NCBI RefSeq assembly: GCF_026625705.1
Contig: NZ_CP113059.1
Coordinates: forward strand, 2,232,001-2,296,000
Reading direction: 5' to 3'
DNA length: 64,000 bases
DNA from: Pedobacter sp. SL55
Lineage (GTDB): Bacteria; Bacteroidota; Bacteroidia; Sphingobacteriales; Sphingobacteriaceae
Position 1 is the stretch's first letter; each line of letters starts with the position of its first letter. The notes beneath the pieces were generated by a model. The model made no database searches. It was not told where the DNA came from and was given only the letters and a program-made list of their open reading frames with translations. The position numbers were made by a program, and so were the translations under genes. Shown here piece after piece: positions 14,993 to 36,699 of this stretch.

Positions 14993-15120
14993 TTTCTTAG
15001 TTTTTGATTTACTTAAAATTAAGTAAAAAGTGCGATGAAAATGCAAGGGTTGGCACCTTGTTTTTGGTGCGCAGGTTTTGGTTTTTAAACCTGATTGTAA
15101 CGAAAATACTTTTTGTCAGT

Positions 15121-15183
15121 GTCATCCTGAGCTTGTCGAAGGATTGGTTTGTGACTAGATGCTTCGATAAACTCAGCATGACA
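15121..15183. repeat. REP-like hairpin, family C (GTCATCCTGAGCTTGTCGAA)
   Basis: GTCATCCTGAGCTTGTCGAA at 15121-15140 is mirrored by TTCGATAAACTCAGCATGAC ending at 15183. It occupies the gap 14993-15344, where I see no gene. A single arm recurs at 30759-30783, and a diverged pair at 21082-21154. Confidence 0.75.
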
Positions 15184-15344
15184 ATGATGAACGGTGCAGT
15201 AGCAACAAAAAGATTGCAGTGGAAAGCAGGACTGAAATACCCAAAGAACCATTATTTTTGCTTTTCAAAAAAAAATAGAAAATATTTAATGAGGCTTGCA
15301 ACCTTTGGGTACGATTGTGCATCTACCCTAATACAAGCAGACAA

Positions 15345-20962: not shown

Positions 20963-21081
20963 TTTCCAAATCCGCCAGTTGGCGAAGCTTTAATTTTATT
21001 TGTTGAAAAGCAATTCCGGCTTTTCATCGGTTACGATAGTCCTGCTATTCGTTGCAAGTTTTTGCTTTAACGTTTGTTGCT

Positions 21082-21272
21082 GTCATTCCGAGGAACGAGG
21101 AATCTGTTTCTTCAATACTTTATAGGTAGATCCTTCGCTACGCTCTGGATGACAGACTAAAACAAAAAACTTTTCACTCTTATCAGGTTTAGTTAACTTA
21201 AAGCAGTGCTTCTATTCCAAATTGGCTCTCTCTCGCTTTAAGATTGCTTCGTCGTTCCTCCTCGCAATGACG
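21082..21272. repeat. REP-like elements (family C-like pair and family A single) between leuA and ilvA
   Basis: GTCATTCCGAGGAACGAGGA and GATCCTTCGCTACGCTCTGG to ATGACAG form an imperfect hairpin at 21082-21154. AGATTGCTTCGTCGTTCCTC to GCAATGACG at 21242-21272 is a family A arm. These fill the 349-base gap, where no gene is seen. Confidence 0.65.
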
Positions 21273-21311
21273 ACATAGGAACGACAAGGCAAGAATAACG
21301 ATGAGAAGAAA

Positions 21312-22484
21312 CTAACTCAACTTAGGCGCCAAATGCAGTACCACCAATTCATTCAAATCGTCATCATTGATGCCCTGTTTTTTATCTGCTAAGTTTAAGA
21401 AAGCGGTATACACCACGGCCAATTGCTCTTTGTCCAAATTGTGACCTAGCCTATCTAAGTGGTGTTTCAAGGCATGTCTGCCGCTTCTTGCCGTTAGTAC
21501 AATAGTAGCATCAGGGAAGCCAACATCTTCTGGTCTAATGATTTCGTAGTTTTCACGATTTTTTAAGAAACCATCTTGGTGAATACCCGAGCTGTGCGCA
21601 AATGCATTGGCACCAACAATCGCTTTGTTAGGTTGCACTGGCATGTTCATTTGGTTGCGCACTTGGTGACTAATTTCATAAATACCCTGCGTATTGATGT
21701 TCGTGTGCAGACCTAAAACTTTGTGCGTTTTCAAAATCATTACTACTTCTTCCATAGAAGTATTACCAGCACGTTCGCCAATACCGTTAATGGTACATTC
21801 TACCTGACGGGCACCATTTTGCAAACCAGCGATAGAGTTAGCCGTAGCCAATCCTAAATCGTTATGGCAGTGACAAGAAATAATCGCTTTATCGATATTC
21901 TTAACGTTCTCTTTTAAGTAAAGAATTTTAGAACCATATTGGTCTGGCAAGCAGTAGCCGTTAGTGTCTGGAATGTTTACAACCGTAGCACCGGCAGCAA
22001 TTACCGCTTCAATCATTTTAGCTAAATATTCAATATCTGCACGGCCTGCATCCTCCGCATAAAACTCCACATCTTCTACATATTTTTTGGCGTATTTTAC
22101 CGCTTCAATAGCACGCTCTAGAATTTCTTCTCTGGTGCTGTTAAATTTGGTCCTGATGTGCATGTCAGAAGCACCAATACCAGTGTGAATACGAGGTCTT
22201 TTGGCGAAACGCAAGGCATCTGCCGCCACATCAATATCATTTTTATTGGCTCTGGTTAATGCGCAAATAATAGGATCGTTTACTGCTTTAGAAAGCTCAA
22301 TCACGCTGTTGAAATCGCCAGGGCTAGAAACAGGAAAACCTGCCTCAATAACATCTACGCCTAGTAGTTCCAACGATTTTGCAATTTCAATTTTCTGAGG
22401 TGTGCTCAATTGGCACCCTGGCACCTGCTCGCCGTCACGCAAAGTGGTGTCAAAAATGTGTACTCTGTTTGGGTCGTGTAACAT
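21312..22484 (-). CDS. leuA: 2-isopropylmalate synthase LeuA, short form without the regulatory domain
   Basis: A 390-residue enzyme that condenses acetyl-CoA with 2-ketoisovalerate, the first step of leucine synthesis. The HMGL-like barrel has [15 protein letters not shown] at the N-terminus. The metal-binding [13 protein letters not shown] is near residue 203, and [15 protein letters not shown] follows. The chain ends soon after the barrel and its linker ([15 protein letters not shown]), so the C-terminal LeuA dimer/allosteric domain of the 500-residue forms is absent. The start is taken at MLHDPNRVH (22484); upstream codons are poorly conserved in character. Isopropylmalate rather than citramalate synthase is inferred from the leuBCD neighbours. 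Confidence 0.9.
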
Positions 22485-22580
22485 AATATTCCAATTAAAA
22501 AGTAAAAATTCAAAAGGCAAAAGCCTGTTTATCGTTTTACTCTAGGTTCCTAACTTTTTTTATTTTTTACTTTTACCTTT

Positions 22581-23654
22581 TTACTTTATTAGACTAAGTA
22601 CTTTTTCGCCCATTTCTTGGGTTCCCAACACTTTAGCGGTGTCGGTATTTTTGTCGGCGATATCGCCAGTTCTATAGCCGTCCTTTAATGCTTTGTCTAC
22701 TGCATCTACTAAAGTTTTTGCTTCTTCTTTTAGTCCGAAACTGATTTCTAACATTAGCGCAGCCGATAGGATAGAAGCCAGTGGATTTGCTAAGTTCTTG
22801 CCAGCAATATCATGTGCCGAACCGTGGATAGGTTCATAGAAACCTACACCATCGCCAACCGAAGCAGAAGCTAACATCCCCATTGAACCTGCAATTTGTG
22901 AAGCTTCATCGGTCAAAATATCTCCAAAAAGGTTAGCGGTTAATACTACATCAAACTTCTTCGGATTTTTAATCAACTGCATGGCTGCATTGTCGATAAA
23001 CATGTGTTCCGTTTCTACATCAGGATACTGTTTAGCAATTTCTTGTACGGTTTCACGCCATAAGCGAGAACTTTCCAATACGTTTGCCTTATCTACCGAA
23101 CACAATCTTTTGCTACGTTGTTGTGCCGCTTGGTAAGCTTTATGCGCAATACGCTCAACTTCATATTTGTGGTAAATCATCAAATCTGAAGCGGTGTTTC
23201 TATCTTCAGAACGAGATTTTTCTCCAAAGTAAACATCGCCTGTTAATTCTCTGAAGAATAAAATATCAGTGCCTTGTAAGATGTGCGCTTTGATACTTGA
23301 AGCTTCTAACAATTCGTCGAACAACAGAATGGGACGTAGGTTCGCATATAAGCCTAATTCCTTTCTGATTTTCAGCAAGCCTTGCTCTGGTCTAACTTTT
23401 AGGGAAGGATCGTTGTCGTACATGGCATGACCGATAGCACCGAATAAAATAGCGTCGCTTTTGCGGGCTTTTTCTAGGGTTTCATCTGGTAGTGGATTGC
23501 CCGTAACTTCAATGGCGGCGTGGCCCATTAAAGCTTCGTCGAAAGTAAATTCGTGACCAAAGTTTTTGGCGATTTGCGCTAGCACAGCTTTCCCCCATTG
23601 GGTAACTTCTTGTCCAATGCCATCGCCAGGTATTACTAAAATGTGTTTTTTCAT
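22581..23654 (-). CDS. leuB: 3-isopropylmalate dehydrogenase LeuB
   Basis: A 357-residue NAD-dependent oxidative decarboxylase of leucine synthesis. It begins HILVIPGDGIGQEV. The substrate-binding arginines are in VRPEQGLLKIRKELGLYANLRP, ELTGDVYFG follows, and the metal Asp residues lie in DILTDEASQIAG. The NAD-binding GSAHDIAGKNLANPLA is near residue 282. The ATG at 23654 (MKKHILVIPG) is preferred to an upstream start. It sits upstream of leuA, with an A/T-rich quasi-repeat spacer of about 100 bases (AAAGTAAAAAGGTAAAAGTA words on the minus strand). Confidence 0.94.
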   Translation of the reverse strand: MKKHILVIPGDGIGQEVTQWGKAVLAQIAKNFGHEFTFDEALMGHAAIEVTGNPLPDETLEKARKSDAILFGAIGHAMYDNDPSLKVRPEQGLLKIRKELGLYANLRPILLFDELLEASSIKAHILQGTDILFFRELTGDVYFGEKSRSEDRNTASDLMIYHKYEVERIAHKAYQAAQQRSKRLCSVDKANVLESSRLWRETVQEIAKQYPDVETEHMFIDNAAMQLIKNPKKFDVVLTANLFGDILTDEASQIAGSMGMLASASVGDGVGFYEPIHGSAHDIAGKNLANPLASILSAALMLEISFGLKEEAKTLVDAVDKALKDGYRTGDIADKNTDTAKVLGTQEMGEKVLSLIK

Positions 23655-23751
23655 TGTATGTTTATTTCTTTCTAACGGCATTCAAGAGGGCTGTGCCGTT
23701 TTTCATTGTTTGTATGTTTTTGAGCGTATCTTAATTTGCATTTAGTCGGTC

Positions 23752-23827
23752 GTCATTTCGAACGAGGAACGAGGAGAAATCTAACGACTATTTTGGATGC
23801 TAGATTTCTCCCTGCGGTCGAAATGAC
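23752..23827. repeat. REP-like hairpin, family B
   Basis: GTCATTTCGAACGAGGAACG to GAGAAATCT is mirrored by AGATTTCTCCCTGCGGTCGA to AATGAC. It lies upstream of leuB, between it and the double ABC ATPase gene. Confidence 0.8.
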
Positions 23828-23852
23828 GATTTTTTTAAAGTTTCTGCTAAAA

Positions 23853-25340
23853 TTAAATCACACTTTCTAATTCTTCTTTGTACGTTTTCTGTTTATAAAT
23901 ATCATTGTATATTACCTCGCCTTTGCTCAACAACAATTGATGCGTTAAATTTTTAGGTAACTGGTCATCGCTGTGCGACACATAAATCAGCGTTCTGTTG
24001 GTAGTGCACAAACCATCAATTAGGGTGTTAAATTGAAGGGTTTGGTGTGCATCTAAACCTTGGCAGGGTTCATCTAACACCAATAGTTCCGGGTTTTTAA
24101 TTACTGTTCTTGCCAATAAAACCAAGCGTTGTTTACCTAATGGCAAGTGCGCTAACAAATCGTTTTTATTGGCAGTTAATCCGAAATATTCAATTAATTC
24201 ATCGACTTGTGTACGTTTGTACCAGCCAATTTCTTTGTATAAGCCAATGCTATCGAAAAAGCCAGAGGCGATGCTTTGCCAAACCGTTGCATTAAAATCG
24301 AAATACCAATGTAGCTCTGGAGAAATTAAACCAATGTGTTGTTTGATGTCCCAGATGCTTTCGCCGCTGCCACGTTTGTTGCCAAAAAGGTAAATCTCAT
24401 TGGCGTAGGCTTGCGGATGGTCGCCATTTACTAAACTTAACAAAGTTGATTTTCCAGAACCATTGTGGCCTTGCAATAACCATTTTTCGCCTGCTATAAT
24501 TTCCCAATTTACGTTTTTAAGCACTTGCTTCTCGCCATAGCTGATGTTCACATCAACCATTTTAATCAGTACCTCACTACTTGATGATGGTGCTTCGTGC
24601 AAAAACTCGGGAATACTTCTCTGTTCAATTACAATGGCACTTTTAGTACAAAAAGTAAAATGTTCTACTAGTTGTCCATCGATGATTTCGCCAAACCTGT
24701 TGATGCAAGCCGGAATTTCAGTTTCGTTACTAACCAAGATGATTTGTGTACCATCATTGGTAGCTTCATCTAATAAGTTATTCAAATTTTGACGGGATTG
24801 GATATCTAAACCAGTGTAAGGTTGGTCTAGCAATAAAAGCTGCGGTTTTAACCATAAGGCTTTAACCAATTGCAACTTTTTATGTTCGCCGCTTGATAGC
24901 TCGATGAGCTGAGCGTTTTTAAGGGCAGCAAAACCTAGCGCTGCTAAAATGGGTTCTGCTTTGGCTAAGTTTAGGTTATTTTCTTTGGCGTAATGCGCTA
25001 ATTCGGCATTAACAGTTAAGGTGTCTTGTACTTGTTGTACATTGTAGCGCTGTTGGTAATAAAAATTGGCAACGCCTTCTTTATTTTTAAATTGATACCA
25101 TTGGGCAATGTATTGGCAGACGGGTTTAGTATCGCTTTGCTTATTAAAGCTGACGACAATTTCTTCTGTACTTTTTTCTATGCCAGCAATTGCTTTCAAC
25201 AAAGCAGTTTTTCCACTTCCGCTAAAACCAGATAAAAGCCAATTTTCACCGTTTTGAATAGTCCATTCCAAGTCCCTTAACACGGTTTTATTGCCGTATT
25301 TTAGGTTAAAGTTGGTAATTTGGACTATTGTTTTAATCAT
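23853..25340 (-). CDS. Double ABC ATPase (ModF/PhrA-like)
   Basis: A 495-residue protein with two fused ABC domains and no membrane segment. Domain 1 has Walker A SGFSGSGKTAL, signature LSSGEHKKLQL and Walker B LLLLDQPYTGLD, with Gln in place of the usual catalytic-site Glu. Domain 2 has GHNGSGKSTLL, PLGKQRLVLL and LLVLDEPCQGLD. This layout matches ModF-type ATPases, whose role is poorly defined. It lies inside the leucine gene order between leuB and a small secreted gene and has no obvious link to amino acid synthesis. The domain 1 Gln suggests one weak nucleotide site, which is inference. Confidence 0.8.
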   Translation of the reverse strand: MIKTIVQITNFNLKYGNKTVLRDLEWTIQNGENWLLSGFSGSGKTALLKAIAGIEKSTEEIVVSFNKQSDTKPVCQYIAQWYQFKNKEGVANFYYQQRYNVQQVQDTLTVNAELAHYAKENNLNLAKAEPILAALGFAALKNAQLIELSSGEHKKLQLVKALWLKPQLLLLDQPYTGLDIQSRQNLNNLLDEATNDGTQIILVSNETEIPACINRFGEIIDGQLVEHFTFCTKSAIVIEQRSIPEFLHEAPSSSSEVLIKMVDVNISYGEKQVLKNVNWEIIAGEKWLLQGHNGSGKSTLLSLVNGDHPQAYANEIYLFGNKRGSGESIWDIKQHIGLISPELHWYFDFNATVWQSIASGFFDSIGLYKEIGWYKRTQVDELIEYFGLTANKNDLLAHLPLGKQRLVLLARTVIKNPELLVLDEPCQGLDAHQTLQFNTLIDGLCTTNRTLIYVSHSDDQLPKNLTHQLLLSKGEVIYNDIYKQKTYKEELESVI

Positions 25341-25354
25341 TGTTTTATTTTTTT

Positions 25355-25416
25355 AACCACATAGAAACATAGATTTTTTTGAAGGCTTTCTCATTGGCCT
25401 ATGTTTCTATGTGGTT
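25355..25416. repeat. 18-bp perfect inverted repeat
   Basis: AACCACATAGAAACATAG (25355-25372) is mirrored by CTATGTTTCTATGTGGTT (25399-25416), with a 26-base loop. It lies upstream of the double ABC ATPase gene. It resembles the AACCACGAAGACGCAAAGGC word at 54649-54675. Confidence 0.75.
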
Positions 25417-25460
25417 TCATTTTTTCATATTAATAAATCCTACTATTGAACTCTAAAGTC

Positions 25461-26008
25461 TTAATCCCATTTAACATCTAAACCCTTAAAATTGTAATTT
25501 GATGTAGAACCGACCCTCTCCCCATAAATTTGAAGACGTAGCAAACTAATTGTTGGTATGATATCCTTTGCTTCCTTAAATTCAATTGTAAAGGCATAAG
25601 AAATTTTTGTTTCTGCCTGTTCAATGCGAAACGTCTTTGTTAAATCATTAGGACGTAATGCTGTAAAGCTTTGCAAAGTATTACCTTTTGGGTCAACTAT
25701 TTGTTGCACTGCAAATTGTAAATTCCTTTTTTTGTTCCTAAATATGTAATTAATCCTCTAACAGTAATTTTATCATCAGTTTTACTACCTTTTACTTCTG
25801 TTATTTTTATAGTTGTACTATCCAATGTAATTTCAATGTTACCACTTCTTAGCTCTAGTGCAGCCTTAAGATACGCAGTTTTCTCTTTCTCGCTAATCAG
25901 CTGATTACTTAAGTTTTCAATTTCCTTTTTTAATACTTCTGAACTAGTTTGAGCCAATGCTTGCGTACACAACAAGCTAAGTAGCAACATTAGTGGTTTA
26001 ATTTTCAT
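25461..26008 (-). CDS. Small secreted protein, apparent frameshift
   Basis: A signal peptide (MKIKPLMLLLSLLCTQALAQ) and a short coiled coil (VLKKEIENLSNQLISEKEKT) are followed by a beta-rich domain. The first frame stops at 25697, while the continuation (AVQQIVDPKGNTLQSFTAL to LDVKWD) lies in the next frame. An eighth A in the A7 run (plus-strand T at 25727-25733) gives G-T-K-K-R-N-L-Q-F-A-V-Q-Q and a protein of about 182 residues. I do not recognise the family. It lies between leuD and the ABC ATPase gene. The function is unknown. Confidence 0.6.
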
Positions 26009-26056
26009 TTTTCAAGGTTTTAGATGATAGGTTAGCTGGATATAAACTACTGTTAA

Positions 26057-26662
26057 TTATAAAGTTTTAGGTTGATATACTCTGTTCTGCTCGTAGGTTT
26101 CAATCAAATCAGTTTGGCTACGAACGAAATCAATATCGTCGTAACCGTTAATCAAGCAAGATTTTTTGTAGGGATTGATTTCGAAGTTTTCTTTAGCTCC
26201 AGTAGCATCAATCGTTACGGTTTGTTCTTCTAAGTTTACCGTCAAGGTAGAAGTAGCATCTTTAGCAACTTGCGTAAAAATATCTGCTAAAAAAGCCTCA
26301 CTTACTTGTATAGGTAGCAAACCGTTGTTTAACGCATTTCCTTTAAAGATATCAGCAAAAAAACTGCTGATGACCACGTCAAATCCTGCATCTTGGATAG
26401 CCCAAGCCGCATGCTCGCGACTACTGCCGCAACCAAAGTTTTTACCTGCAACCAATACCTTTCCGCTATAAGTAGGATCGTTCAACACGAAGTCCGCTTT
26501 AGGTGTATTGTCGCCGTTGTAACGCCAATCGCGGAACAGGTTTTCGCCAAAGCCTTCGCGGGTAGTGGCTTTTAAAAACCTCGCCGGGATGATTTGGTCG
26601 GTATCTATATTCTCAATCGATAATGGTACTACCGATGAAGTTAATGTTTCAAATTTTTTCAT
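26057..26662 (-). CDS. leuD: 3-isopropylmalate dehydratase small subunit LeuD
   Basis: A 201-residue aconitase swivel-domain protein that partners LeuC to isomerise 2- to 3-isopropylmalate. [13 protein letters not shown] at the N-terminus and [19 protein letters not shown] near residue 73 are diagnostic. The length is normal for the bacterial type. It lies downstream of the methyltransferase gene, which separates it from leuC; an intervening gene is uncommon for leuCD but compatible with one transcript. The upstream spacer of about 130 bases contains repeat words (TGATTACACTGATTTAGTG and the GAGCTCGCAAGCTCGG 24-mer). Confidence 0.94.
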
Positions 26663-26671
26663 ACTTAAAGA

Positions 26672-26820
26672 TGATTACACTGATTTAGTGATTATCTGTG
26701 ATGAGCTCGCAAGCTCGGTTACACCGATTAAATTATACTATTTGTCTTTATTCCTTACTCTTTGTTCTTTTATCTTTAGTCTTTCCGCCTTTTACCTTTT
26801 CAAAGCTTTTACCCTCAATC
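26672..26820. repeat. Quasi-repeat patch with GATTACACTGATT words, a shared 24-mer and CTTTnnTC pyrimidine words
   Basis: GATTACACTGATTTAGTGAT precedes GATGAGCTCGCAAGCTCGGT (inverse copy of 6121-6143). A pyrimidine-rich series follows (CTTTATTCCTTACTCTTTG, TTTATCTTTAGTCTTTCC) running into the methyltransferase 3' end. Confidence 0.5.
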
Positions 26821-27553
26821 TTTTATAATCTGCAGTCCATTCTCCGTTTTTGAAATAAGTTGGCTTTAAAATGCTTACTGCTAAATTCGTTACTGCTTTT
26901 GCTTCTTCTTCATTTAGATTTACAAAAGCGTGTTGTGCAAATTGATTGATCCAGTTCAACATACCATCTTCGCCAACTAGCTTTGTCGGTCTGTCGAAAA
27001 GCCACATTTGTTCCGTTTCAAATCCACTTGCTTCTAATAAATTGGCGTAGTGTGCTATGGATGGGAAAAACCAAAAGTTCGAAATCACTCTGTGCTCCAG
27101 TCCTAGTTCTTTTGCAGCTTGGTCTATCGCATCTACAATCGACTTTACATTTCCCTTACCTCCAAATTCAGCGACTAAACGACCACCGTGTTTTAAGCTT
27201 TTAAAAATGCCTCTCAACAATCCTCTTTGGTTTTCAATCCAATGAAACGTGGCGTTACTAAATACGGCATCAAACTCACGGTTGTAGTCTAAAGCAGCTG
27301 CATCTTGTACCTCAAATTGTAAAAGAGGATAGTTTTGTTTCGCTAATTCTATCATATCTGCCGAAGCATCTACTCCCGAAACAGTGGCACCACTTTCCTG
27401 TATTTTAGCAGCTAAATCGCCGGTTCCACAACCTACATCTAAAATGTTTTCGCCCGCTTTGGCATCAAGCCATTGCAAAACATCAGCTCCGTAATTAGAT
27501 ACGAAACGATGTTGTTCGTTGTACAGTTTACTGTCCCAATGTATTTCTGGCAT
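26792..27553 (-). CDS. Class I SAM-dependent methyltransferase
   Basis: A 253-residue methyltransferase. Motif I is ENILDVGCGTGDLAAKI, the acidic loop is SGVDASADMIELAKQ, and FDAVFSNATFHWI is motif IV. The F-S-N-A-x-x-H-W pattern resembles trans-aconitate 2-methyltransferase. That would be chemically suggestive next to leuCD, since these enzymes handle aconitate-like acids, but this is inference; many broad methyltransferases share the motif. It lies between leuC and leuD in the same direction. A CCCCTAAAGGGG palindromic element ends three bases before its ATG. Confidence 0.78.
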   Translation of the reverse strand: MPEIHWDSKLYNEQHRFVSNYGADVLQWLDAKAGENILDVGCGTGDLAAKIQESGATVSGVDASADMIELAKQNYPLLQFEVQDAAALDYNREFDAVFSNATFHWIENQRGLLRGIFKSLKHGGRLVAEFGGKGNVKSIVDAIDQAAKELGLEHRVISNFWFFPSIAHYANLLEASGFETEQMWLFDRPTKLVGEDGMLNWINQFAQHAFVNLNEEEAKAVTNLAVSILKPTYFKNGEWTADYKRLRVKALKR

Positions 27554-27555
27554 AT

Positions 27556-27643
27556 TACCCCCTAACCCCCTAAAGGGGGAATTTGATTAAACTTTTATAA
27601 CTTAAGCCCCATGTAGTAAAATCCCCTTTAGGGGTTTGGGGTT
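27556..27643. repeat. CCCCTAAAGGGG palindromic element pair between leuC and the methyltransferase
   Basis: TACCCCCTAACCCCCTAAAG to GGGGAATTT (27556-27583) is mirrored by AAATCCCCTTTAGGGG to TTTGGGGTT (27619-27643). The second arm encodes the last residues of LeuC and supplies its stop codon. The first arm ends at the methyltransferase start. Confidence 0.75.
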
Positions 27644-29037
27644 AACAACTCCCTCACATCTGTAATCTTCCCAGTTACAGCAGCAGCAGCAGCCGTTAAC
27701 GGACTAGCCAGCATTGTTCTTGCATTTGGTCCTTGGCGGCCTTCAAAGTTTCTGTTTGAGGTAGAAACACAATATTTTCCTGCCGGAATTTTATCCTCGT
27801 TCATCCCCAAACAAGCCGAACAGCCTGGTTCACGTAATTGAAAGCCCGAAGCTTCGAATACTTTGTCTAAACCTTCTGCAATGGCTTGTGCTTCCACTTG
27901 CTTAGAACCTGGAACAATCCAAACTTCTACGTTTTCTGCCTTCTGTTTGCCTTTCACAAACTCCGCAACTGCACGTAAATCTTCGATACGAGAATTGGTA
28001 CAGCTACCAATGAAAACATAATCTACAGGTTTACCTAACAAACTTTCCTCATCCGCAAAGCCCATATAATCTAAGGCCTTTTTGTAGGACGTTTGCTCCG
28101 TTTCTGGTTGGGCAGCAGTCGCTGGAATATGATCAGCAATGCCGATACCCATTCCAGGGTTGGTACCGTAAGTAATCATTGGTGCAATATCAGCAGCATC
28201 ATAAGTTAATACCGCATCAAATTTGGCATCTTCATCGCTATATAAAGTTTTCCAATAAGCTAAAGCATTGTCCCACTCTTCGCCAGCTGGTGCAAATTTT
28301 CTACCTTTTACGTATTCGAAAGTAGTTTCGTCAGGCGCAATTAAACCACCACGAGCACCCATTTCGATACTCATGTTGCAAACGGTCATACGTGCTTCCA
28401 TGCTTAACGAACGGATGGCCGAACCAGCAAACTCTACAAAATAACCAGTGCCACCAGCGGCAGAAATTTTAGCGATGATGTAAAGGATGATGTCTTTTGC
28501 ACCAACACCTTTTCTTAACTCGCCATTTACCTCAATTTTCATGGTTTTAGGTTTCGATTGTTGCAAACATTGCGTTGCAAAAACCTGCTCCACTTGCGAG
28601 GTGCCGATACCAAAAGCGATGGCGCCAAAAGCACCATGCGTAGAAGTATGGCTATCGCCACAAACCATGGTTTTTCCTGGTAAGGTAATTCCTAATTCTG
28701 GACCAATTACGTGGACAATCCCTTGAAAAGGATGACCTAAACCATAAAGCTCTACGCCAAACTCTGCACAGTTTTTAGTCAACATATCTACCTGATATCT
28801 CGAAAGTTCTTCCTTGATGGGCAAATGTTGGTCTAAAGTAGGCACGTTATGGTCGGCAGTAGCTACCGTTTGTTTCGGACGAAAAAGCCCGATGCCACGT
28901 TTTCTCAAACCATCAAAAGCCTGAGGCGAAGTAACCTCGTGAATTAAATGCGTATCAATGTATAAAATATCAGGAAAACCTTCTTCACGTTTCACTACGT
29001 GAGCATCCCATATTTTTTCTACTAATGTTTTCGCCAT
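27628..29037 (-). CDS. leuC: 3-isopropylmalate dehydratase large subunit LeuC
   Basis: A 469-residue [4Fe-4S] hydro-lyase of leucine synthesis. Active-site and cluster blocks are [36 protein letters not shown] and [14 protein letters not shown]; the cluster cysteines are those of GSCTNS and CSAC. The usual C-terminus of the family ends near T-D-V-R-E. Here it continues L-L-T-P-N-P, and those codons and the TAA lie within a CCCCTAAAGGGG element, so the tail appears repeat-derived. It is preceded by ilvC, with a spacer holding two more such elements. Confidence 0.95.
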
Positions 29038-29057
29038 CTTTTTATAAATTGTTTTTA

Positions 29058-29187
29058 GTTAACCCTCCCAACCCTCCCCTAAAAGGGAGGGCTAGTATAG
29101 AGTTTATTTTGTTTGTAGCAAAAATGCAAATTTCACTACGAATTTGCTTAAAGCATTACGAAATTCCCCTTTAGGGGATTTAGGGGT
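29058..29187. repeat. CCCCTAAAGGGG elements between ilvC and leuC
   Basis: AACCCTCCCCTAAAAGGGAG (from about 29069) and TTCCCCTTTAGGGGATTTAG (from 29164) are imperfect palindromes of the same family. The second touches the ilvC stop codon. Confidence 0.65.
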
Positions 29188-30668
29188 TACGCTGTCTTAA
29201 TCGACTTCATTGCAGTCATTGCTTTACGCAATTTTCTGCCTACAACCTCTACTTGGTGGTCACGTAAAATCTCGTTGATCGCAACTAATTCAGCGTTATC
29301 AACCGAACCATCTTTACCTTCGTTAAAGTTTTTACCTACTAAATCCGTATCAACAGTTTTCATGAAATCCATTAACAAAGGCTTACAAGCTTGGTCAAAT
29401 AAGTAACAACCATATTCAGCAGTATCAGAAATTACACGGTTCATTTCGAACAATTTCTTACGAGCAATCGTGTTAGCAATTAGCGGAGTTTCGTGTAAAC
29501 TTTCGTAGTAAGCACTTTCTGGTTTAATACCAGCTTCAACCATAGTTTCGAAAGCCAATTCCACACCAGCTCTTACGAAAGCCACCATTAAAGTATAGTT
29601 GTCAAAATATTCTTGCTCGCCAATTTTCACATCACCAGCAGGCGTTTTTTCGAAAGCAGTTTCGCCAGTTTCAGCTCTCCATTTCAATAAGTTTGCATCC
29701 CCGTTGGCCCAGTCAGCCATCATGGTGCTAGAGAACTCGCCGCTCATGATATCATCTTGGTGTTTTTGAAACAATGGACGCATGATGTTTTTCAACTCCT
29801 CAGAAATATGGAAAGCTTTAACTTTAGCTACATTGCTCAAACGATCCATCATACCGCTTACACCGCCGTGTTTCAAAGCCTCTGTAATTACCTCAACACC
29901 ATATTGAACCAATTTAGAAGCATAGCCAGCGTCAATTCCTTTTTCCACCATTTTATCGAAAGAAAGGATAGAACCAGTTTGCAACAAACCACATAAAATA
30001 GTTTGCTCGCCCATTAAATCAGATTTAACCTCGGCCACGAAAGACGATTTCAAGACACCTGCTCTGTGACCGCCAGTACCTACACAGTAAGCTTTAGCTT
30101 GTGCCAACCCCTTACCTTCAGGATCGTTTTCTGGGTGTACGGCAATTAAAGTTGGTACACCAAAACCTCTTAAATATTCAGCTCTAACCTCAGAACCAGG
30201 GCATTTAGGTGCCACCATAATTACAGTAATGTCTTTACGGATTTGCATACCTTCCTCTACAATGTTGAAACCGTGAGAGTAAAGCAAAGTAGAACCTTGT
30301 TTCATTAATGGCATCACCGCATTTACCACCGAAGTATGTTGTTTATCCGGCGTAAGGTTAATTACCACGTCAGCAGTAGGGATTAATTCTTCGTAAGTGC
30401 CAACTTTGAAATTGTTTTCCGTAGCATTTTTCCAACTATCTCTTTTTTGCTCGATAGCTTCTTTGCGCAATGCGTAAGATACGTCCAAACCGCTGTCTCT
30501 CAAATTTAAACCTTGATTTAAGCCTTGAGCACCACAGCCTACAATTACCAGTTTTTTACCTTTTAGAGCGTTTACGCCATCCAAAAACTCATCGTTAGCC
30601 ATGAAATCGCATACACCTAATTGGTTCAATTTTTCTCTAAGTGGTAATGTGTTAAAATAATTTGCCAT
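29187..30668 (-). CDS. ilvC: Ketol-acid reductoisomerase IlvC (class II)
   Basis: A 493-residue NADPH enzyme that isomerises and reduces acetolactate or acetohydroxybutyrate in valine and isoleucine synthesis. The Rossmann loop is [18 protein letters not shown], with the specificity loop [33 protein letters not shown] carries a catalytic block, and the doubled C-terminal knotted domain (about 290 residues) marks the long class II form. Metal-binding acidic residues are expected in [14 protein letters not shown]. It follows ilvN in the operon, with about 370 bases of repeat-rich spacer between. Confidence 0.95.
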
Positions 30669-30685
30669 TTTTTTTATTTAGTTTT

Positions 30686-31041
30686 TAGTGATTACACAGA
30701 TTTTGTGATTACACTGATTTATTGTTTATGTTTTAGTTCTTAATTCAATTTTTTGCTTGTCATCCTGAGCTTGTCGAAGGATTTCTTTATTTTGAAAATG
30801 AATTTCAGTAACACTTATCTTCTTTAGCCCCGCTTTTCGCTGTAATCTTTTTTGGTTTTCCGTCATTCGCTCCCTTTTCGCCATTGCGAGGAGGAACGAC
30901 GTGGCAATCTTTTTCGCAAGACCACCAAAAAGTATTTCCGCTTCAATCGGGTTTAGTTAACAAAAGTAAGAAGACCGATGTCCGATGACCGAAGTTTAAG
31001 GCTGTTTCTCTTCGGACTTCCGTCTTCTGACCTCCGACTAT
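30686..31041. repeat. Repeat-filled spacer between ilvN and ilvC
   Basis: The 373-base gap holds no gene. It contains GTGATTACACAGATTTTGTG with GATTACACTGATT (30689-30721), a family C arm (30759-30783) and a family A copy (30882-30910). It ends with a GACCGATGTCCGATGACCGA / CTTCGGACTTCCGTCTTCTG fold-back patch (30972-31037). Confidence 0.6.
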
Positions 31042-31677
31042 CTACATCGTAAAAATCTTCTCGCCCTTATCCAAGAACTCATTTTCTACACGTTCTTCTC
31101 CTGGTTCTTCTGCTTCAAATTCTTTCAGCTTCTCGTGGAAACCAGCACTATCTTTAATGATTGCTACCCTAGCCGAACGCACAAATTCAATCAGTTCATA
31201 AGGTTCAAGTGCTTTTACCAAAGCATCAGTTTCTTCTTTGTGGCCAGTTACAGAAAAGACGGTATAATCTTTTCTAATCACTACTGCGGTTGCACCGTAT
31301 TGTCTCAATAAACGCTCTACCGTTACTTTCTCGGTAATCTCTTCTGTAGAAACTTTGTAAAGAGCCAGTTCTTGCCAAATCACTTCGCTGTCCGTATTGA
31401 AATACACTTTCAAGACTTCAACTTGTTTCTCAATCTGGCGTGCCAATTTTCTCACTACTTCATAACTTTCGTTAATTAAAATCGTGAACCGGTGTATGCC
31501 TGCAATCTCCGATGGAGAAGTGTTTAAGCTATCAATGTTGATTTTTCTTTTCGAAAATATAATCGAAATACGGTTCAATAAACCAACCCTGTCTTCAGCA
31601 TAAACTGTAATGGTAAAATCCTGCTTACCTTCGTAGCTGGTGTCGCTAGGTGTATATTTTATCGTGTCGTTACTCAT
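31042..31677 (-). CDS. ilvN: Acetolactate synthase small (regulatory) subunit IlvN
   Basis: A 211-residue protein. The N-terminal ACT domain DFTITVYAEDRVGLLNRISI and RKINIDSLNTSPSE binds valine and confers feedback control on IlvB. A C-terminal domain follows (VERLLRQYGATAVVIRKDYT, GHKEETDALVKALEPY). The C-terminal acidic tail (EFEAEEPGEERVENE) is longer than in enterobacteria. It lies 91 bases downstream of ilvB, separated by a purine/pyrimidine quasi-repeat spacer. Confidence 0.92.
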   Translation of the reverse strand: MSNDTIKYTPSDTSYEGKQDFTITVYAEDRVGLLNRISIIFSKRKINIDSLNTSPSEIAGIHRFTILINESYEVVRKLARQIEKQVEVLKVYFNTDSEVIWQELALYKVSTEEITEKVTVERLLRQYGATAVVIRKDYTVFSVTGHKEETDALVKALEPYELIEFVRSARVAIIKDSAGFHEKLKEFEAEEPGEERVENEFLDKGEKIFTM

Positions 31678-31768
31678 TTTTATGGGATTAAGTATAAAGG
31701 AACAGGGATGAAAGACATAACGTCTATACTTTTAATCTTTGCTCTTTTATCCTTGTTCTTTGCTCTAA

Positions 31769-33514
31769 TTACTTCAATCTAATTTCGCTTACGCTGCAAC
31801 CTTGTGGTACCATTGGGAAAACGTTATTTTCCTTGCCAACCATTACCTCTAAGAGGTAAGAGCCTTCGTGGTTAATCATCGTTTCCAGCGCTTTCTTAAG
31901 CTCAGCTCTTTGGTCTACTTTACTCGCTTCTATGTAGTAAGATTTAGCCAATGCTACAAAATCAGGGCTAGTGATATTCACAAACGAATAGCGTTTATCG
32001 TGGAACAATTGCTGCCATTGGCGTACCATTCCTAAGAACTGGTTGTTTAAAATTAAAATCTTTACCGCTGCACCAAATTGCATAATCGTACCTAATTCTT
32101 GCGGCGTCATTTGGAAACCACCATCGCCAATAATGGCAATTACAGTTTTGTTAGGCGCACCATATTTAGCGCCAATAGCCGCAGGTAGGCCGAAACCCAT
32201 TGTGCCTAATCCGCCAGATGTTACATTGCTACGAGTATTGTTAAATTTTGCATATCGGCAGGCCACCATTTGGTGCTGACCGACATCGGTAACTATTATC
32301 GCATCGCCGCCACAAATCTCATTGATGTTTCTCAACACTTCGCCCATGGTCATTTCTTCTCCAGTAGGGTAAAGTTCAGGTGTAATGACTTGATCTATTT
32401 CCTGTTGGTTGTAATCTCTAAATTGAGCAACCCAAGCTTCGTGTTTATTTTCTTTTGCTAAGTTGGTTAAGATAGGAAGTGTTTCTTTACAGTCGCCCCA
32501 AACCCCAACTTCAGCTTTTACGTTTTTGTCAATCTCAGCTGGGTCAATATCTAAATGGATTACTTTAGCTTGCTTCGCATATTTATCTAAACGGCCAGTT
32601 ACACGGTCGTCGAAACGCATCCCGATGGCAATTAAAACATCGCATTCGTTGGTTAAAACGTTTGGTCCATAGTTACCATGCATCCCCAACATACCTACGT
32701 TCAAAGGATGGTCGGTTGGAATAGCACCTTCGCCCATGATAGTCCAAGCCGCAGGAATACCAGTTTTTTCGATGAAAGCTTTAAATTCTTTCTCGGCATT
32801 TCCTAAAATCACCCCTTGGCCAAACAACACAAAAGGTTTTTGAGCACTGTTGATTAGCTTTGCAGCTTCTTCAATAAATTCAACCCTCACTTTTGGTTTA
32901 GGTCTGTAGCTGCGGATGTGGTTGCATTTTACGTAAGCTTCAAATTCTTCAATCTGTAATTGTGCATTTTTAGTAATGTCAATCAACACAGGGCCTGGTC
33001 TGCCACTTTTGGCAATATAAAAAGCTTTTGCCAATACCTCAGGGATTTCCTTTGCGTCGGTAATCTGGTAGTTCCATTTCGTTACTGGCGTAGTGATGTT
33101 AATTACATCCGTCTCTTGGAAGGCATCTGTACCCAAAAGGTGTGCAAATACTTGTCCGGTAATGCAAACTAGAGGTGTGCTATCAATTTGCGCATCAGCT
33201 AAGCCAGTTACCAAATTAGTCGCACCTGGACCGCTGGTTGCAAAGCAAACACCTACTCGGCCACTTGTTCTTGCGTAACCTTGCGCAGCGTGAATACCGC
33301 CTTGCTCATGGCGTACCAAAATATGTTCTAATTTGTCTGCATAGTCATAAAGCGCATCATAAATTGGCATAATTGCACCGCCTGGGTAGCCGAAAATTGT
33401 GCTTACGCCCTCTTCAATAAGGGCGTTCAACAACATTTGCGAGCCCGAACCTTTAAACCCCCCAACCCCCTGAAGGTGGCTTGATTTCGTTGCGGTTAAA
33501 GTATCTTGTTCCAT
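31769..33514 (-). CDS. ilvB: Acetolactate synthase large (catalytic) subunit IlvB
   Basis: A 581-residue ThDP enzyme forming acetolactate or acetohydroxybutyrate. The catalytic Glu lies in LVRHEQGGIHAAQGYAR. FGYPGGAIMPIYDAL is at the N-terminus, and the ThDP/Mg motif GDGGFQMTPQELGTIMQFGA (with LNNQFLGMV) is in the C-terminal domain. Residues about 12-22 (S-H-L-Q-G-V-G-G-F-K-G) are encoded by a CCCCTGAAGG-type palindromic element at 33456-33480. This lies in the variable leader before GSQMLLNALIEEG, so it appears to be a tolerated repeat insertion. It is upstream of ilvN in the same operon. Confidence 0.94.
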   Translation of the reverse strand: MEQDTLTATKSSHLQGVGGFKGSGSQMLLNALIEEGVSTIFGYPGGAIMPIYDALYDYADKLEHILVRHEQGGIHAAQGYARTSGRVGVCFATSGPGATNLVTGLADAQIDSTPLVCITGQVFAHLLGTDAFQETDVINITTPVTKWNYQITDAKEIPEVLAKAFYIAKSGRPGPVLIDITKNAQLQIEEFEAYVKCNHIRSYRPKPKVRVEFIEEAAKLINSAQKPFVLFGQGVILGNAEKEFKAFIEKTGIPAAWTIMGEGAIPTDHPLNVGMLGMHGNYGPNVLTNECDVLIAIGMRFDDRVTGRLDKYAKQAKVIHLDIDPAEIDKNVKAEVGVWGDCKETLPILTNLAKENKHEAWVAQFRDYNQQEIDQVITPELYPTGEEMTMGEVLRNINEICGGDAIIVTDVGQHQMVACRYAKFNNTRSNVTSGGLGTMGFGLPAAIGAKYGAPNKTVIAIIGDGGFQMTPQELGTIMQFGAAVKILILNNQFLGMVRQWQQLFHDKRYSFVNITSPDFVALAKSYYIEASKVDQRAELKKALETMINHEGSYLLEVMVGKENNVFPMVPQGCSVSEIRLK

Positions 33515-33653: not shown

Positions 33654-33681
33654 ATATTCCCCCTTTAGGAGGCTAGGGGTT
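33654..33681. repeat. CCCCTAAAGGGG-type element at the ilvD stop
   Basis: TTCCCCCTTTAGGAGGCTAG to GGGTTA overlaps the ilvD stop codon. It is the same family as at 27556 and 29058. Confidence 0.55.
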
Positions 33682-35359
33682 AAGCTTCGTCGGTTACGCA
33701 ACCTCCAGCCGCATCTGTTACTGTTTTGGCATATTTAAATAATACTCCCTTGGTAACTTTCAGTTTTGGTTGTTGCCATTTCGCTCTACGTTCAGCAATG
33801 ACTTCATCGCTCACTTTTAACGTAATCTTATTGTTTACGGCATCAATTTCAATGATGTCATCATCCTCCACTAATCCAATTAAACCGCCTTTGTAAGCTT
33901 CTGGCGTAATGTGACCTACCACGAAACCGTGAGTACCGCCAGAAAAACGACCGTCAGTAATTAAGGCAATAGATTTACCCAAACCTGCACCGATAATTAA
34001 TGAAGTTGGTTTTAACATCTCAGGCATTCCTGGCGCTCCAACTGGACCTTCATTTTTAATTACTACTACATCTCCCGGTTTAATTCTTCCTGTAGAGATG
34101 CCAGTTACTAAATCTTTTTCTCCGTCAAATACGCGAGCTGGGCCTTCAAACCTTTCACCTTCTTTCCCTGAGATTTTAGCTACAGAGCCTTTTTCCGCTA
34201 AGTTTCCATACAAAATTTGTAAGTGACCAGTTGCTTTAATTGGATTGTCTAATCGTTGAATAATAGGTTGATTGTAATCCATGATCGATTTTACATCTTT
34301 CAAGTTCTCAGCCACGGTTTGTCCGGTAACCGTTAAACAATCGCCGTGCAATAAGCCTTCATCTAACAAATATTTCAATACCGCTGGCACGCCGCCAAAT
34401 TGATGTAAATCTTGCATCAGGTATTTTCCGCTTGGTTTAAAATCTGCCAAAACAGGGGTAATATCGCTCATGCGTTGGAAATCGTCTTGTGTAATTTCTA
34501 CGCCAATCGCTTTGCCCATTGCAATGAAGTGTAATACCGCATTGGTACTTCCTCCTAAAATGATAATGGAGCGAATTGCATTTTCAAACGCTTTTCTCGT
34601 CATGATATCGGAAGGCTTGATGTCTTTTTCTAACAGCACTTTAATGTATTTTCCAGCATCTAAGCACTCATTTTTCTTCTCGTCGCTTACTGCAGGATTT
34701 GACGATGAATAAGGCAAGCTCATGCCCAAAGCCTCAATAGCAGAAGCCATCGTGTTTGCGGTGTACATCCCACCGCAAGCACCAGCACCAGGGCAAGTAT
34801 GTTTAATGATACCTTGATAATCTTCATCAGATAAATTACCGCAGATTTTCTGGCCTAAAGCTTCGAAAGCAGAAACGATGTTTAGTTCTTCGCCTTTGTA
34901 ATGTCCCGGAGCAATGGTGCCTCCATAAACCATAATCGAAGGGCGGTTTAAACGAGCCATAGCCATTATCGCCCCTGGCATGTTTTTATCACAACCCGGA
35001 ATAGCAATTACGCCATCGTAATATTGTCCGCCACAAATGGTTTCAATACTGTCAGCAATTACATCGCGACTAACCAAAGAATAACGCATACCTTCAGTTC
35101 CGTTGCTCATGCCATCACTTACACCAATGGTATTAAAAGTAAGACCGACCAAATCATTGTTCCAGACACCTTTTTTTACCACAGCGGCTAAATCATTCAA
35201 GTGCATGTTACAAGTGTTGCCGTCATAACCCATACTTGCAATGCCCACTTGTGCTTTTGCCATATCGGCATCGGTTAAACCAATTCCATAAAGCATGGCT
35301 TGAGCTGCGGGTTGTGTTGGGTCTTGCGTAAAAGTCTTACTGTATTTGTTCAATTCCAT
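33680..35359 (-). CDS. ilvD: Dihydroxy-acid dehydratase IlvD
   Basis: A 559-residue Fe-S dehydratase that makes the 2-keto acids of valine and isoleucine. Cluster and active-site motifs are [33 protein letters not shown] and [14 protein letters not shown]. The C-terminal swivel contains [20 protein letters not shown]. It is preceded by an isoleucine-rich leader peptide and an intrinsic terminator (35394-35427), so its expression, and that of downstream genes, is probably attenuated. The stop codon merges into a palindromic repeat. Confidence 0.95.
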
Positions 35360-35393: not shown

Positions 35394-35427
35394 CAAAAAA
35401 AAACCGCCTCTTTTTGGGAGGCGGTTT
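35394..35427 (-). terminator. Intrinsic terminator (attenuator) in front of ilvD
   Basis: On the minus strand, AACCGCCTC and GAGGCGGTT form a 9-bp G/C-rich stem (plus-strand arms 35402-35410 and 35418-35426) with a 7-base loop, followed by about ten U. It lies about 20 bases after the stop of the Ile-rich leader ORF and about 35 bases before the ilvD ATG, as in a transcription attenuator. Confidence 0.85.
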
Positions 35428-35447
35428 CGCTAATTATATTTTTTCAA

Positions 35448-35522
35448 TTATATACAACGATTGCCCTCCCTCGGTTGAGGAATAATGATAATGTTGTTAA
35501 TAATGACTGTGTTTAAAGGCAT
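35448..35522 (-). CDS. Isoleucine-rich leader peptide upstream of ilvD (putative)
   Basis: A 24-codon ORF on the minus strand, ATG at 35522-35520 and TAA at 35450-35448. It begins M-P-L-N-T-V and then has I-I-N-N-I-I-I-I-P, with a final C-I: seven Ile, one Val and one Leu in 24 residues, including four consecutive Ile codons. It is followed within about 20 bases by an intrinsic terminator and then ilvD. This is the arrangement of ribosome-stalling attenuators such as E. coli ilvL. Isoleucine shortage would stall the ribosome on the Ile run and could prevent terminator formation. The competing antiterminator helix is not demonstrated here, so the mechanism is inference. Confidence 0.7.
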   Translation of the reverse strand: MPLNTVIINNIIIIPQPREGNRCI

Positions 35523-35573
35523 GTGTAGTTTTTCTTGCAGCCAAACATACTAACAAATTATCAAGAAGAGAAA

Positions 35574-36464
35574 TTAAATGATCACTTCATAGTTTACTTT
35601 TTCTAATACTAGGTTTTTATATGCTCTTTGTAAGGTGGCTCCAATACTATCTCTCCATCTTTGTCTGTATACCGTTTCATCTACGGTATGGATACCGGCT
35701 ACTTCAACGGCTGTTCCGCAGAAGAATGCGCCATCTGCCTCTTTAAGAAAATTTACAGTAATTTCTTTCTCAATAACTTCGATATCTAGCACTTTACAAA
35801 GCTCAATAATGGTAGCTCTGGTAATTCCTGGCAGGATATTTCCTTTAACTGGCGTATACAATTTGCCATTCTTTTCGATGAAAATATTGGCGCCAGATCC
35901 TTCTGCAACCAAACCTTTGTGGTCTAACAGTAAAGCTTCGTCAAAGCCTTTATTTTTAGCATCTGATGTAGCCAAGATGGAGTTGACATAATTGCCACTA
36001 ATTTTAGCCTCGATTTTCGTAGATTTTGGATTAGGACGTTCGAAAGGAGAGATGCAAATTTTCAATTGCCTATCGCCTAAATACGCTCCCCATTCCCAAG
36101 CACAAAGCATAATAGACGTTTGCTCTGGAGCAACCAAGGTCATTTGCGGCTCGCTAAAAACTAAGGGACGGATGTAAGCATCCTTAAAATTATTCAATTC
36201 GAGCAGTCGGTAAGTTTGCTTAATTAGGTCGTCGATATTCCATTTAAACGGAATGCCTGTTAAATCGCATGAGCGTTTTAACCGCTCGAAATGCTCTCTG
36301 GCCTTAAAAATACGCGTAGCATTGTGGGTTTTGTAAGCCCTAATACCCTCGAAAGCTGCAAAGCCATAGTGTAACGATTGACCATATAAGTCAGTCTTCG
36401 CTTCGTTGGCTTTTACAAATTGGCCGTTGAGATAAATTACCGTGTTCGAATTGTAATAATCCAT
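35574..36464 (-). CDS. ilvE: Branched-chain amino acid aminotransferase IlvE
   Basis: A 296-residue fold-type IV PLP aminotransferase, the last step to Leu, Ile and Val. N-terminal YYNSNTVIYLNGQFV and LHYGFAAFEGIRAYKT are characteristic. The PLP Lys is expected in KIEAKISGNYVNSILA, where the family has K-x-x-x-N-Y. EGSGANIFIEKNGKLYTP and GILPGITRATIIEL bind the cofactor phosphate. It is the first gene of the locus. A leader peptide rich in Leu, Val and Ile, an intrinsic terminator and a small TCATGATT/AATCATGA hairpin (36505-36524) lie upstream. Confidence 0.93.
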   Translation of the reverse strand: MDYYNSNTVIYLNGQFVKANEAKTDLYGQSLHYGFAAFEGIRAYKTHNATRIFKAREHFERLKRSCDLTGIPFKWNIDDLIKQTYRLLELNNFKDAYIRPLVFSEPQMTLVAPEQTSIMLCAWEWGAYLGDRQLKICISPFERPNPKSTKIEAKISGNYVNSILATSDAKNKGFDEALLLDHKGLVAEGSGANIFIEKNGKLYTPVKGNILPGITRATIIELCKVLDIEVIEKEITVNFLKEADGAFFCGTAVEVAGIHTVDETVYRQRWRDSIGATLQRAYKNLVLEKVNYEVII

Positions 36465-36541: not shown

Positions 36542-36580
36542 AAAAAAGCGCCCCAGTTTTTTAGAAAGGGGCGCTTTTTT
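36542..36580 (-). terminator. Intrinsic terminator (attenuator) in front of ilvE
   Basis: On the minus strand, AAAAAAGCGCCCC pairs with GGGGCGCTTTTTT (plus-strand arms 36568-36580 and 36542-36554), a 13-bp stem with a 13-base loop and a U-rich 3' arm. It begins 17 bases after the stop of the branched-chain-rich leader ORF and ends about 78 bases before ilvE. Confidence 0.88.
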
Positions 36581-36597
36581 TGATGTTACTCAATATT

Positions 36598-36699
36598 TTA
36601 TAACGAACCCTTGCACTGTTTTAGCAGCAGTACATTAAGCAGCAGTACCAAAGTCAAATTGACTTGGTTAAGGCTATTATTTGCTACAATTAAATTCAT
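36598..36699 (-). CDS. Leu/Val/Ile-rich leader peptide upstream of ilvE (putative ilvL-like)
   Basis: A 33-codon ORF on the minus strand, ATG at 36699-36697 and TAA at 36600-36598. By my count, 16 of 33 residues are branched-chain: 11 Leu, 4 Val and 1 Ile. It starts M-N-L-I-V-A and has a central run T-L-V-L-L-L-N-V-L-L-L-K, encoded largely by CTG codons in a direct repeat GTACTGCTGCT. A strong terminator follows 17 bases after the stop, then ilvE. Length, composition and position match the leader peptides of ilv attenuators known from Proteobacteria. No Shine-Dalgarno is seen, as is usual in this phylum. Translation is not proven. Confidence 0.8.
   Translation of the reverse strand: MNLIVANNSLNQVNLTLVLLLNVLLLKQCKGSL

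Follow-up and report, generated by a model that had tools for sequence, protein, structure and literature searches.

Attenuation of branched-chain amino acid operons is textbook knowledge in Escherichia coli, and the usual picture is of a single leader for each operon. The ilv–leu cluster of Pedobacter sp. SL55 raises the question of whether a single branched-chain locus can be governed by two leaders in series, and of what each of them would sense. The cluster lies in a 64,000-nt stretch of genomic DNA (here 'the window', to which all coordinates refer), in which a first-pass annotation had proposed an isoleucine-specific leader peptide and terminator between ilvE and ilvD, behind a first leader upstream of ilvE (leaders 2 and 1, respectively, in what follows). 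It was confirmed that leader 2 is real, in that an Ile-rich ORF and a terminator precede ilvD. Very probably, it is an attenuator that responds to Ile, has a promoter box of its own and stands behind a Leu/Val attenuator; the genomes of some related bacteria appear to encode series of two, or even three, of these sensors. This wider result, of putative serial and sometimes duplicated attenuators ahead of Bacteroidota ilv genes, may be the more interesting part.

Parts and pairing of leader 2

The ilvE–ilvD spacer spans 214 nt (the ilvE stop codon ends at 35574 and ilvD begins at 35359) and contains a 24-codon ORF, read from an ATG at 35522–35520 to a TAA at 35450–35448, whose peptide MPLNTVIINNIIIIPQPREGNRCI holds seven Ile, four of them in one run (35492–35481), one Val and one Leu; the coordinates and codon counts first annotated for it hold. 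The terminator, annotated as a 9-bp stem with a U run about 20 bases past the ORF and followed by ilvD, was read as beginning 21 nt after the stop codon: its G+C-rich arms (AACCGCCTC, 35426–35418; GAGGCGGTT, 35410–35402) are followed by nine T (35403–35395), two of which lie inside the stem, and the leader stop codon is 88 nt from the ilvD start. When the spacer was dinucleotide-shuffled 5000 times, a short ORF with at least seven Ile arose in 72 shuffles, an Ile run of at least four in eight and both together in one, and none of 200 shuffles folded as well as the leader 2 RNA (z −4.25). When the 64-kb window was scanned on both strands for leader–terminator units, six calls were returned, amongst which only the two ilv leaders were seen by eye to possess a strong G+C-rich terminator.

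Table 1. Features of the ilv–leu locus, in window coordinates.
Feature	Position	Strand	Basis
ilvB, ilvN, ilvC, leuC, leuD, leuB, leuA, ilvA	19712..33514	-	ORFs; Pfam except ilvN
ilvD, dihydroxy-acid dehydratase, first gene behind leader 2	33680..35359	-	Pfam ILVD_EDD_N, ILV_EDD_C
Terminator 3:4 of leader 2, 9-bp stem, 7-nt loop and U run	35395..35426	-	Sequence, alignment, folding
Antiterminator 2:3, GGGAGG 35470-35465 with CCUCCC 35421-35416	35416..35470	-	Folding, alignment, foreign-partner pairing
Leader 2 ORF, 24 aa, Ile control codons	35448..35522	-	Sequence, alignment, covariance model
Protector hairpin 1:2, UUCCUC 35482-35477 with GAGGGA 35472-35467	35467..35482	-	Helix scan, covariation
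Putative promoter P2: sigma-A -7 box TATGTTTG, start predicted near 35537	35542..35549	-	TAnnTTTG conservation
ilvE, branched-chain aminotransferase	35574..36464	-	Pfam Aminotran_4; name from context
Leader 1 terminator, AAAGCGCCCC ... GGGGCGCTTT and T run	36542..36577	-	Sequence, scan
Leader 1 ORF, 33 aa MNLIVANNSLNQVNLTLVLLLNVLLLKQCKGSL, Leu/Val-rich, upstream of ilvE	36598..36699	-	Sequence, scan, relatives

Conservation of these parts was assessed in an alignment (A1) of 40 distinct sequences, taken from loci whose ORF has at least four Ile. The ORF is open in all 40, and Ile occupies four codon positions in 40/40 and one more in 39/40, with ATT/ATC variation at two of these five; at two further positions the codon is for Ile, Leu or Val, or is missing. 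Three Ile codons are invariably ATT in the 40 sequences, and a Thr (column 13) and an Asn (column 28), lying between or before the Ile codons, are as strictly conserved as the Ile codons themselves, and RNA structure may therefore account for part of the conservation. The terminator and the strand that competes with it are among the most conserved parts of leader 2. Hairpin 1:2 starts in the last Ile codon of the run (columns 44–49 with 55–60) and, in a scan of every possible helix, came out top for the number of pair types; 97.5% of its cells are paired (6 cells are not), against 61–80% when the register is slid by one to three columns. Two-sided changes were found in 16 cells, at two of the six pairs, although 11 of the 16 represent one change inherited within the window-type clade. 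None of 500 shuffles scored as high on paired cells, two-sided cells or covariation score, whilst on the other two of the five measures, the counts of covarying pairs and of pair types, the hairpin was not above the shuffles (317 and 311 of 500). Judged from these sequence comparisons, the hairpin next to the control codons is maintained through compensating changes.

The end of the ORF can also pair with the 5' arm of the terminator, and this antiterminator can form in all 40 sequences; it uses the terminator's own 5' arm, and the two structures are thus mutually exclusive. Its register differs by clade, being GGGAGG:CCUCCC in the window, a bulged GGGAAGGC:GCCUCCC or similar in the clade-mates of the window and GAGGUGG:CCGCCUC in most other sequences. 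The duplex energy of the window antiterminator is −17.2, compared with a mean of −9.2 for foreign partners, none of 56 of which was as good. By sequence, leader 2 hence has the strands of a classical attenuator: a control-codon ORF, a terminator, an antiterminator and a protector hairpin. Rfam models scored below their gathering scores there (Phe_leader RF01859, 27.0 of 55 bits; Thr_leader RF00506, 22.0 of 55 bits; Trp_leader RF00513, 17.6 of 41 bits), and no T-box or riboswitch match reached the gathering score, the 64 kb giving only one tRNA and three matches to Flavo-1 RNA.

On the footing of these parts, their conservation, the compensating changes and the mutually exclusive pairing, we assign leader 2, with considerable confidence, to the ribosome-mediated transcription attenuators, with charged tRNA-Ile as the signal sensed. 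The 24-codon leader would be transcribed by RNA polymerase that had started at the predicted promoter P2 (near 35537) or had read through from ilvE. With Ile-tRNA scarce, the ribosome would stall in the Ile run and mask strand 1, strand 2 (GGGAGG) would pair with strand 3 (CCUCCC), no terminator would form and ilvD onward would be transcribed; with Ile-tRNA ample, the ribosome would reach the stop codon at 35450 and cover strand 2, leaving strand 3 to pair with strand 4 and transcription to end at about 35395. If the leader were not translated, hairpin 1:2 would form and termination would follow. The separate Leu/Val leader upstream would control ilvE in a similar manner, so that two attenuated units would stand in series, Leu/Val gating ilvE and Ile gating the shared pathway together with the Ile-committing ilvA. 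We infer the translation of leader 2, the stalling, the termination, the activity of P2, the extent of the downstream unit and the response to Ile.

The genes from ilvD to ilvA are assumed to form one transcription unit, within which additional promoters could lie in spacers several hundred nucleotides long. We take the names of these genes from gene order and general knowledge of the pathway, ilvN, which matched no Pfam family at E ≤ 1e-20, being named by position. Since ilvA commits threonine to isoleucine, it would be sensible for Ile to be sensed ahead of the ilvD–ilvA set. By eye, a methyltransferase-like gene (26792–27553, minus strand) was seen between leuC and leuD and an ABC-ATPase-like gene (23853–25340, minus strand) between leuD and leuB. 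The three Flavo-1 matches lie at 30822–30958 (−), 15083–15237 (+) and 21034–21194 (−), two of them inside the cluster, in the ilvN–ilvC and leuA–ilvA spacers.

Conservation, promoter box and alternative readings

The distribution of leader 2 was studied in 103 loci (72 named ilvE loci, 29 family members and two copies of the window region), with counts made on the window plus the 72 named loci, a set of 73 that takes in a Kordia MAG and an unclassified Bacteroidota MAG. By pattern, a leader 2 cassette adjoins ilvD in 43/73 loci and is absent from 30/73; a covariance model, built from these same leader 2 sequences, returned 43 matches of at least 73 bits in the same 73 sources, the next best scoring 34 bits. 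The 43 include 12/12 loci of the window clade as well as loci whose IlvE is 65–81% identical, and in a family sample of 151 genomes the model exceeded 70 bits in 13 of the 20 belonging to the genus of the window and in none of the other 131. The first-pass annotation had looked to close relatives for the Ile run: an Ile-rich core is found in 12/12 loci of the window clade, as a pure four-Ile run in eight and with one Leu or Val inside the run in the other four. The label 'isoleucine-specific' suits this Ile-dominated clade but is too strong beyond it, because the core of most relatives resembles NIISNLIIVIS, with one Leu and one Val; in a P. yulinensis locus (L101) it is just TISKLINVIS, with three Ile. 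Gain or loss affects the entire cassette at once: about 12 changes fall on a quick IlvE+IlvD tree with two long branches, eight of them forced by well-supported branches. Given these changes and the 30 loci without it, the cassette is dispensable, and its repeated loss or gain within one genus offers a natural comparison of one-leader with two-leader species.

A candidate promoter accompanies the cassette. In F. psychrophilum, the sigma-A box TAnnTTTG is described at −12 to −5 (a passage of PMC9723704), which would place the start of P2 near 35537 and leave a 15-nt untranslated region. TAnnTTTG lies 5' of the leader 2 ORF in 43/43 cassette loci, at a distance of 14–21 nt in 39/43 and preceded by GTTAG in 41/43, with a −33 element (TTCTTT) 17–18 nt further upstream in 30/43; no −33 box is recognisable in the clade of the window. 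Elsewhere in leader-2 spacers there are seven TAnnTTTG boxes in 11198 nt, and the 30 leader-less spacers have the box in one case (5414 nt in all, with 25 of the 30 spacers only 1–140 nt long and five of 622–704 nt). From its sequence context, P2 is likely to be the promoter of leader 2. Given this conserved −7 box of its own, leader 2 probably heads a separate ilvD-to-ilvA unit behind the ilvE leader, as a promoter–leader–terminator cassette for which read-through from ilvE would be a second input. The two-tier control first proposed is thereby modified: the second, Ile-dominated leader with its terminator before ilvD stands, but it probably belongs to a separate cassette. As to a strong ilvD promoter downstream of the terminator, which the same proposal had named as evidence against itself, no TAnnTTTG was seen by eye between the leader 2 terminator and ilvD in the window.

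The main alternative, which we consider unlikely, is that only transcripts begun at the ilvE promoter pass through leader 2, which would be an internal checkpoint, the TATGTTTG motif not being an active promoter. Such a single transcript would fit the lack of any terminator visible by eye in the 51-nt interval that separates ilvE from leader 2, the missing −33 element in the window clade and the back-to-back leaders found elsewhere in the phylum with no visible promoter box between them (see below), but the −7 box kept in every cassette locus, its usual spacing and its GTTAG neighbour speak against it. The position of the cassette also argues against it. In five long ilvE–ilvD spacers that were read for ORFs (L066, L071, L081, L098 and L056), an ORF of about 192 aa, methyltransferase-like by eye, lies behind ilvE, and in the first four of these the cassette still adjoins ilvD despite the inserted ORF; L056, one of the five leader-less spacers of 622–704 nt, has no cassette. 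It is far less probable that leader 2 works mainly through translational coupling, or through a released small RNA or peptide, and not through transcription termination: the Sinorhizobium trp attenuation leader peptide peTrpL is reported to act in trans (a passage of PMC7298713), yet here the terminator and its competitor are among the best conserved parts and 88 nt separate the leader stop codon from the ilvD start. Least probable, and already disfavoured, is the notion that the terminator simply ends transcripts of ilvE, with the Ile run as a by-product of a spacer so A+T-rich that ATT codons are common. Although the terminator is located in the spacer that follows ilvE, the five conserved Ile codons, the hairpin and antiterminator that are kept, a promoter box 5' of the terminator, the cassettes retained behind an inserted gene and the single match in 5000 shuffles all speak against it. 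A cassette with its own predicted promoter thus remains the preferred reading of leader 2.

Leader 1 and a possible division of labour

Leader 1 had been described as sensing Leu, Val and Ile; in the window this does not hold, its 11 Leu, four Val and single Ile (core LVLLLNVLLL) making it a Leu/Val leader. The only gene placed behind leader 1 is ilvE. With five loci dropped, an ILV-rich leader 1 core was found in 68/73 loci, and relatives carry terminators similar to that of the window. The five loci dropped were L040, L042 and L046, with a weak core, and L057 and L097, on a long branch; L042 has no clear leader 1, whilst a Leu-rich ORF missed by the scan is visible by eye in L046. When leader 1 of the window was paired with its own terminator, the result was not clearly better than with foreign partners, 34% of which were as good. 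The mean Ile fraction of the leader 1 core is 13% in the 40 loci with leader 2 against 28% in the 28 without. In a phylogenetic regression with lambda at 1.0, the best of four values tried, p was 0.036 for the fraction and 0.058 for the count; independent pairs, of which there are seven on starred branches and about two informative, gave a median p of 0.5. That leader 1 gives up Ile codons where leader 2 exists is therefore suggestive only. If true, the two Pedobacter leaders would divide the labour between them.

Further conserved sequences were noted upstream. A palindrome, ACCAAATACTAAATTGGT (36754–36737, minus strand), lies 5' of leader 1 and overlaps a TAnnTTGG box; its core CCAAAnACTAAATTGG occurs in 64/73 loci, including L042, which has no clear leader 1, and it is possibly an operator or promoter element of ilvE. 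Further upstream of ilvE, at 36917–36895 (−) in the window, two more sequences were noted: TACCGAATACC, shared by 18/73 loci, and GCATAAnA, found 376–514 nt before ilvE in 72/73, a short pattern whose occurrence may partly be chance.

Putative serial attenuators in the Bacteroidota, and systems known elsewhere

Whether such series exist beyond Pedobacter was addressed in a phylum sample, in which 100/247 genomes gave an ilvD match at E ≤ 1e-150. Seventy-seven regions were read: 60 from 59 of those 100 genomes, and 17 chosen for kinship, namely 16 ilvE regions obtained by searches that targeted relatives of tandem loci, plus the Kordia locus L097. A strict scan found at least two leader–terminator units in 7/77 regions and no unit in 1163 control windows. 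With the scan relaxed, 41/77 regions had at least one unit and 14/77 had at least two (4/60 and 9/16 by set, plus L097), a figure that is no estimate of frequency since part of the set was targeted; 7/16 of the targeted regions had fewer than two units. In the controls, which are other parts of Pedobacter-type loci and not of the surveyed genomes, the relaxed scan gave one unit in 10/1163 windows and two in none. Reading by eye added a double in L208 and a third unit in L199, so that triples precede ilvE in L205 and L199 (the first L199 unit being the one seen by eye); in both, the last two units are near-identical, which suggests recent tandem duplication of a whole unit. Tandem units before ilvE occur in genomes of three family codes and in the Kordia MAG. 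Three regions with one leader far from ilvD (L154, L161 and L173) showed no evident second unit on reading. A family search around G215 found a close ilvE in no second genome (1/76, itself), and the G215 tandem therefore stands alone.

The tandem units are closely packed, with a gap of 5–30 nt after the preceding terminator in 12/15 downstream units and TAnnTTTG in none of the 15; the lack of boxes says little for a single transcript, given that only 6/14 first units have the box at 18–22 nt and five have no box at all. Each unit tends to fit itself: across 57 units, the two of the window included, the unit's own region 2 paired with the terminator better than the foreign mean (Wilcoxon p = 7e-11, the units not being independent) and fell within the best 10% in 33/57, with no preference for the own terminator in the second unit of L204 and both units of L207, among others. 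An order of mixed leader first and Ile leader last was considered as a rule and rejected, the last unit being more Ile-rich in seven, equal in four and lower in three of 14 by hand count.

From these comparisons we lean cautiously towards serial attenuation of branched-chain synthesis as a recurrent Bacteroidota design, in which units are duplicated, lost and re-tuned as cassettes, a proposal that includes both the multiplication of units and the Pedobacter division of labour; in its Pedobacter version, one unit would stand before ilvE and one, with its own predicted promoter, before ilvD. If true, each unit would multiply the termination probability, and units with different control codons would give a steeper or a multi-amino-acid response. 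Two or three serial amino acid leaders on one pathway would offer a natural test of why units multiply, for which a steeper response, several inputs and the suppression of leak are candidate reasons. Flavobacteria do not rely on Shine–Dalgarno initiation (a passage of PMC9723704), and ribosome control of transcription in Bacteroidota would for that reason be of interest in itself.

The following comparisons rest on passages of the papers cited. Leader-peptide attenuators govern ilvGMEDA, ilvBN and leuABCD in E. coli, and branched-chain attenuators have been reported in S. aureus and Listeria (PMC6123439). As in the E. coli leaders, branched-chain codons in a short ORF, a terminator and an alternative antiterminator precede a biosynthetic operon here; unlike E. 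coli, where each separate operon has one leader, two leaders precede two adjacent units of one cluster, the second leader of the window is Ile-dominated and its promoter box is of the Bacteroidota type. In S. aureus and L. monocytogenes, a branched-chain attenuator peptide lies ahead of a large ilv–leu cluster, as in the window (PMC5794164, PMC5864092, PMC6123439), but there is one attenuator, and Ile is also sensed by CodY, not by a second leader (PMC6123439). The closest likeness in arrangement is Salmonella mgtCBR, whose tandem attenuators with two signals were called a singular example (PMC3641672): two attenuating ORFs stand in series with different signals, although the mgtCBR pair shares one leader, with ATP and proline supply as its signals, whereas the ORFs of the window are separated by ilvE and a −7 box and have codons for different branched-chain amino acids. 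The Veillonella ilvD motif, a structured element found only in Veillonella and a weak riboswitch candidate (PMC8632094), lies like leader 2 before ilvD, in some cases with a possible terminator; the passages on it mention no Ile-rich ORF, unlike leader 2.

A survey from 2010 stated that, to its authors' knowledge, leader-peptide systems had previously been found only in Proteobacteria and Actinobacteria, before its own Firmicutes cases (PMC2965389). In the phylum of the window, leader-peptide attenuation has been inferred from 5' regions: the F. psychrophilum transcriptome gave strong clues for it before amino acid operons (PMC9723704) and B. thetaiotaomicron has leader-peptide-like sORFs in long 5' regions (PMC7366714), the relevant passages naming neither an ilv leader nor leaders in pairs or in tandem. 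The first-pass annotation knew of no description of dual branched-chain attenuators, and no account of dual or serial ones was found among the matches listed in open-access full text; the arrangement is nonetheless not peculiar to this locus, as series recur elsewhere in the phylum.

Leaders of the same build also precede other genes in the family of the window. The family sample listed 46 model matches, 13 of them the ilvD cassette; 17 of the other 33 were read, and L117, from among the 13, and L105, the second match of the window's own genome, brought the number read to 19. Thirteen stand before an aspartokinase-like thrA, three before ilvE and one before a pheA-like gene; of the remaining two, one is a leader that precedes ilvD in a P. 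yulinensis-type genome and the other is not a leader. The match G000:C1:1344528 (33 bits, E 0.06) was rejected, as by its sequence it is not a leader. Control codons are Thr/Ile before the thrA-like and Phe/Tyr before the pheA-like gene, names that we presume from familiar sequence signatures. With the same build before thrA, ilvE and pheA genes, ribosome-mediated attenuation looks like a general device in the family. The thrA-like leaders (L118–L127, L129, L131 and L133) encode Thr/Ile-rich peptides such as MNFNTSIITTIIITTGINQRG and, as we take it, resemble E. coli thrL.
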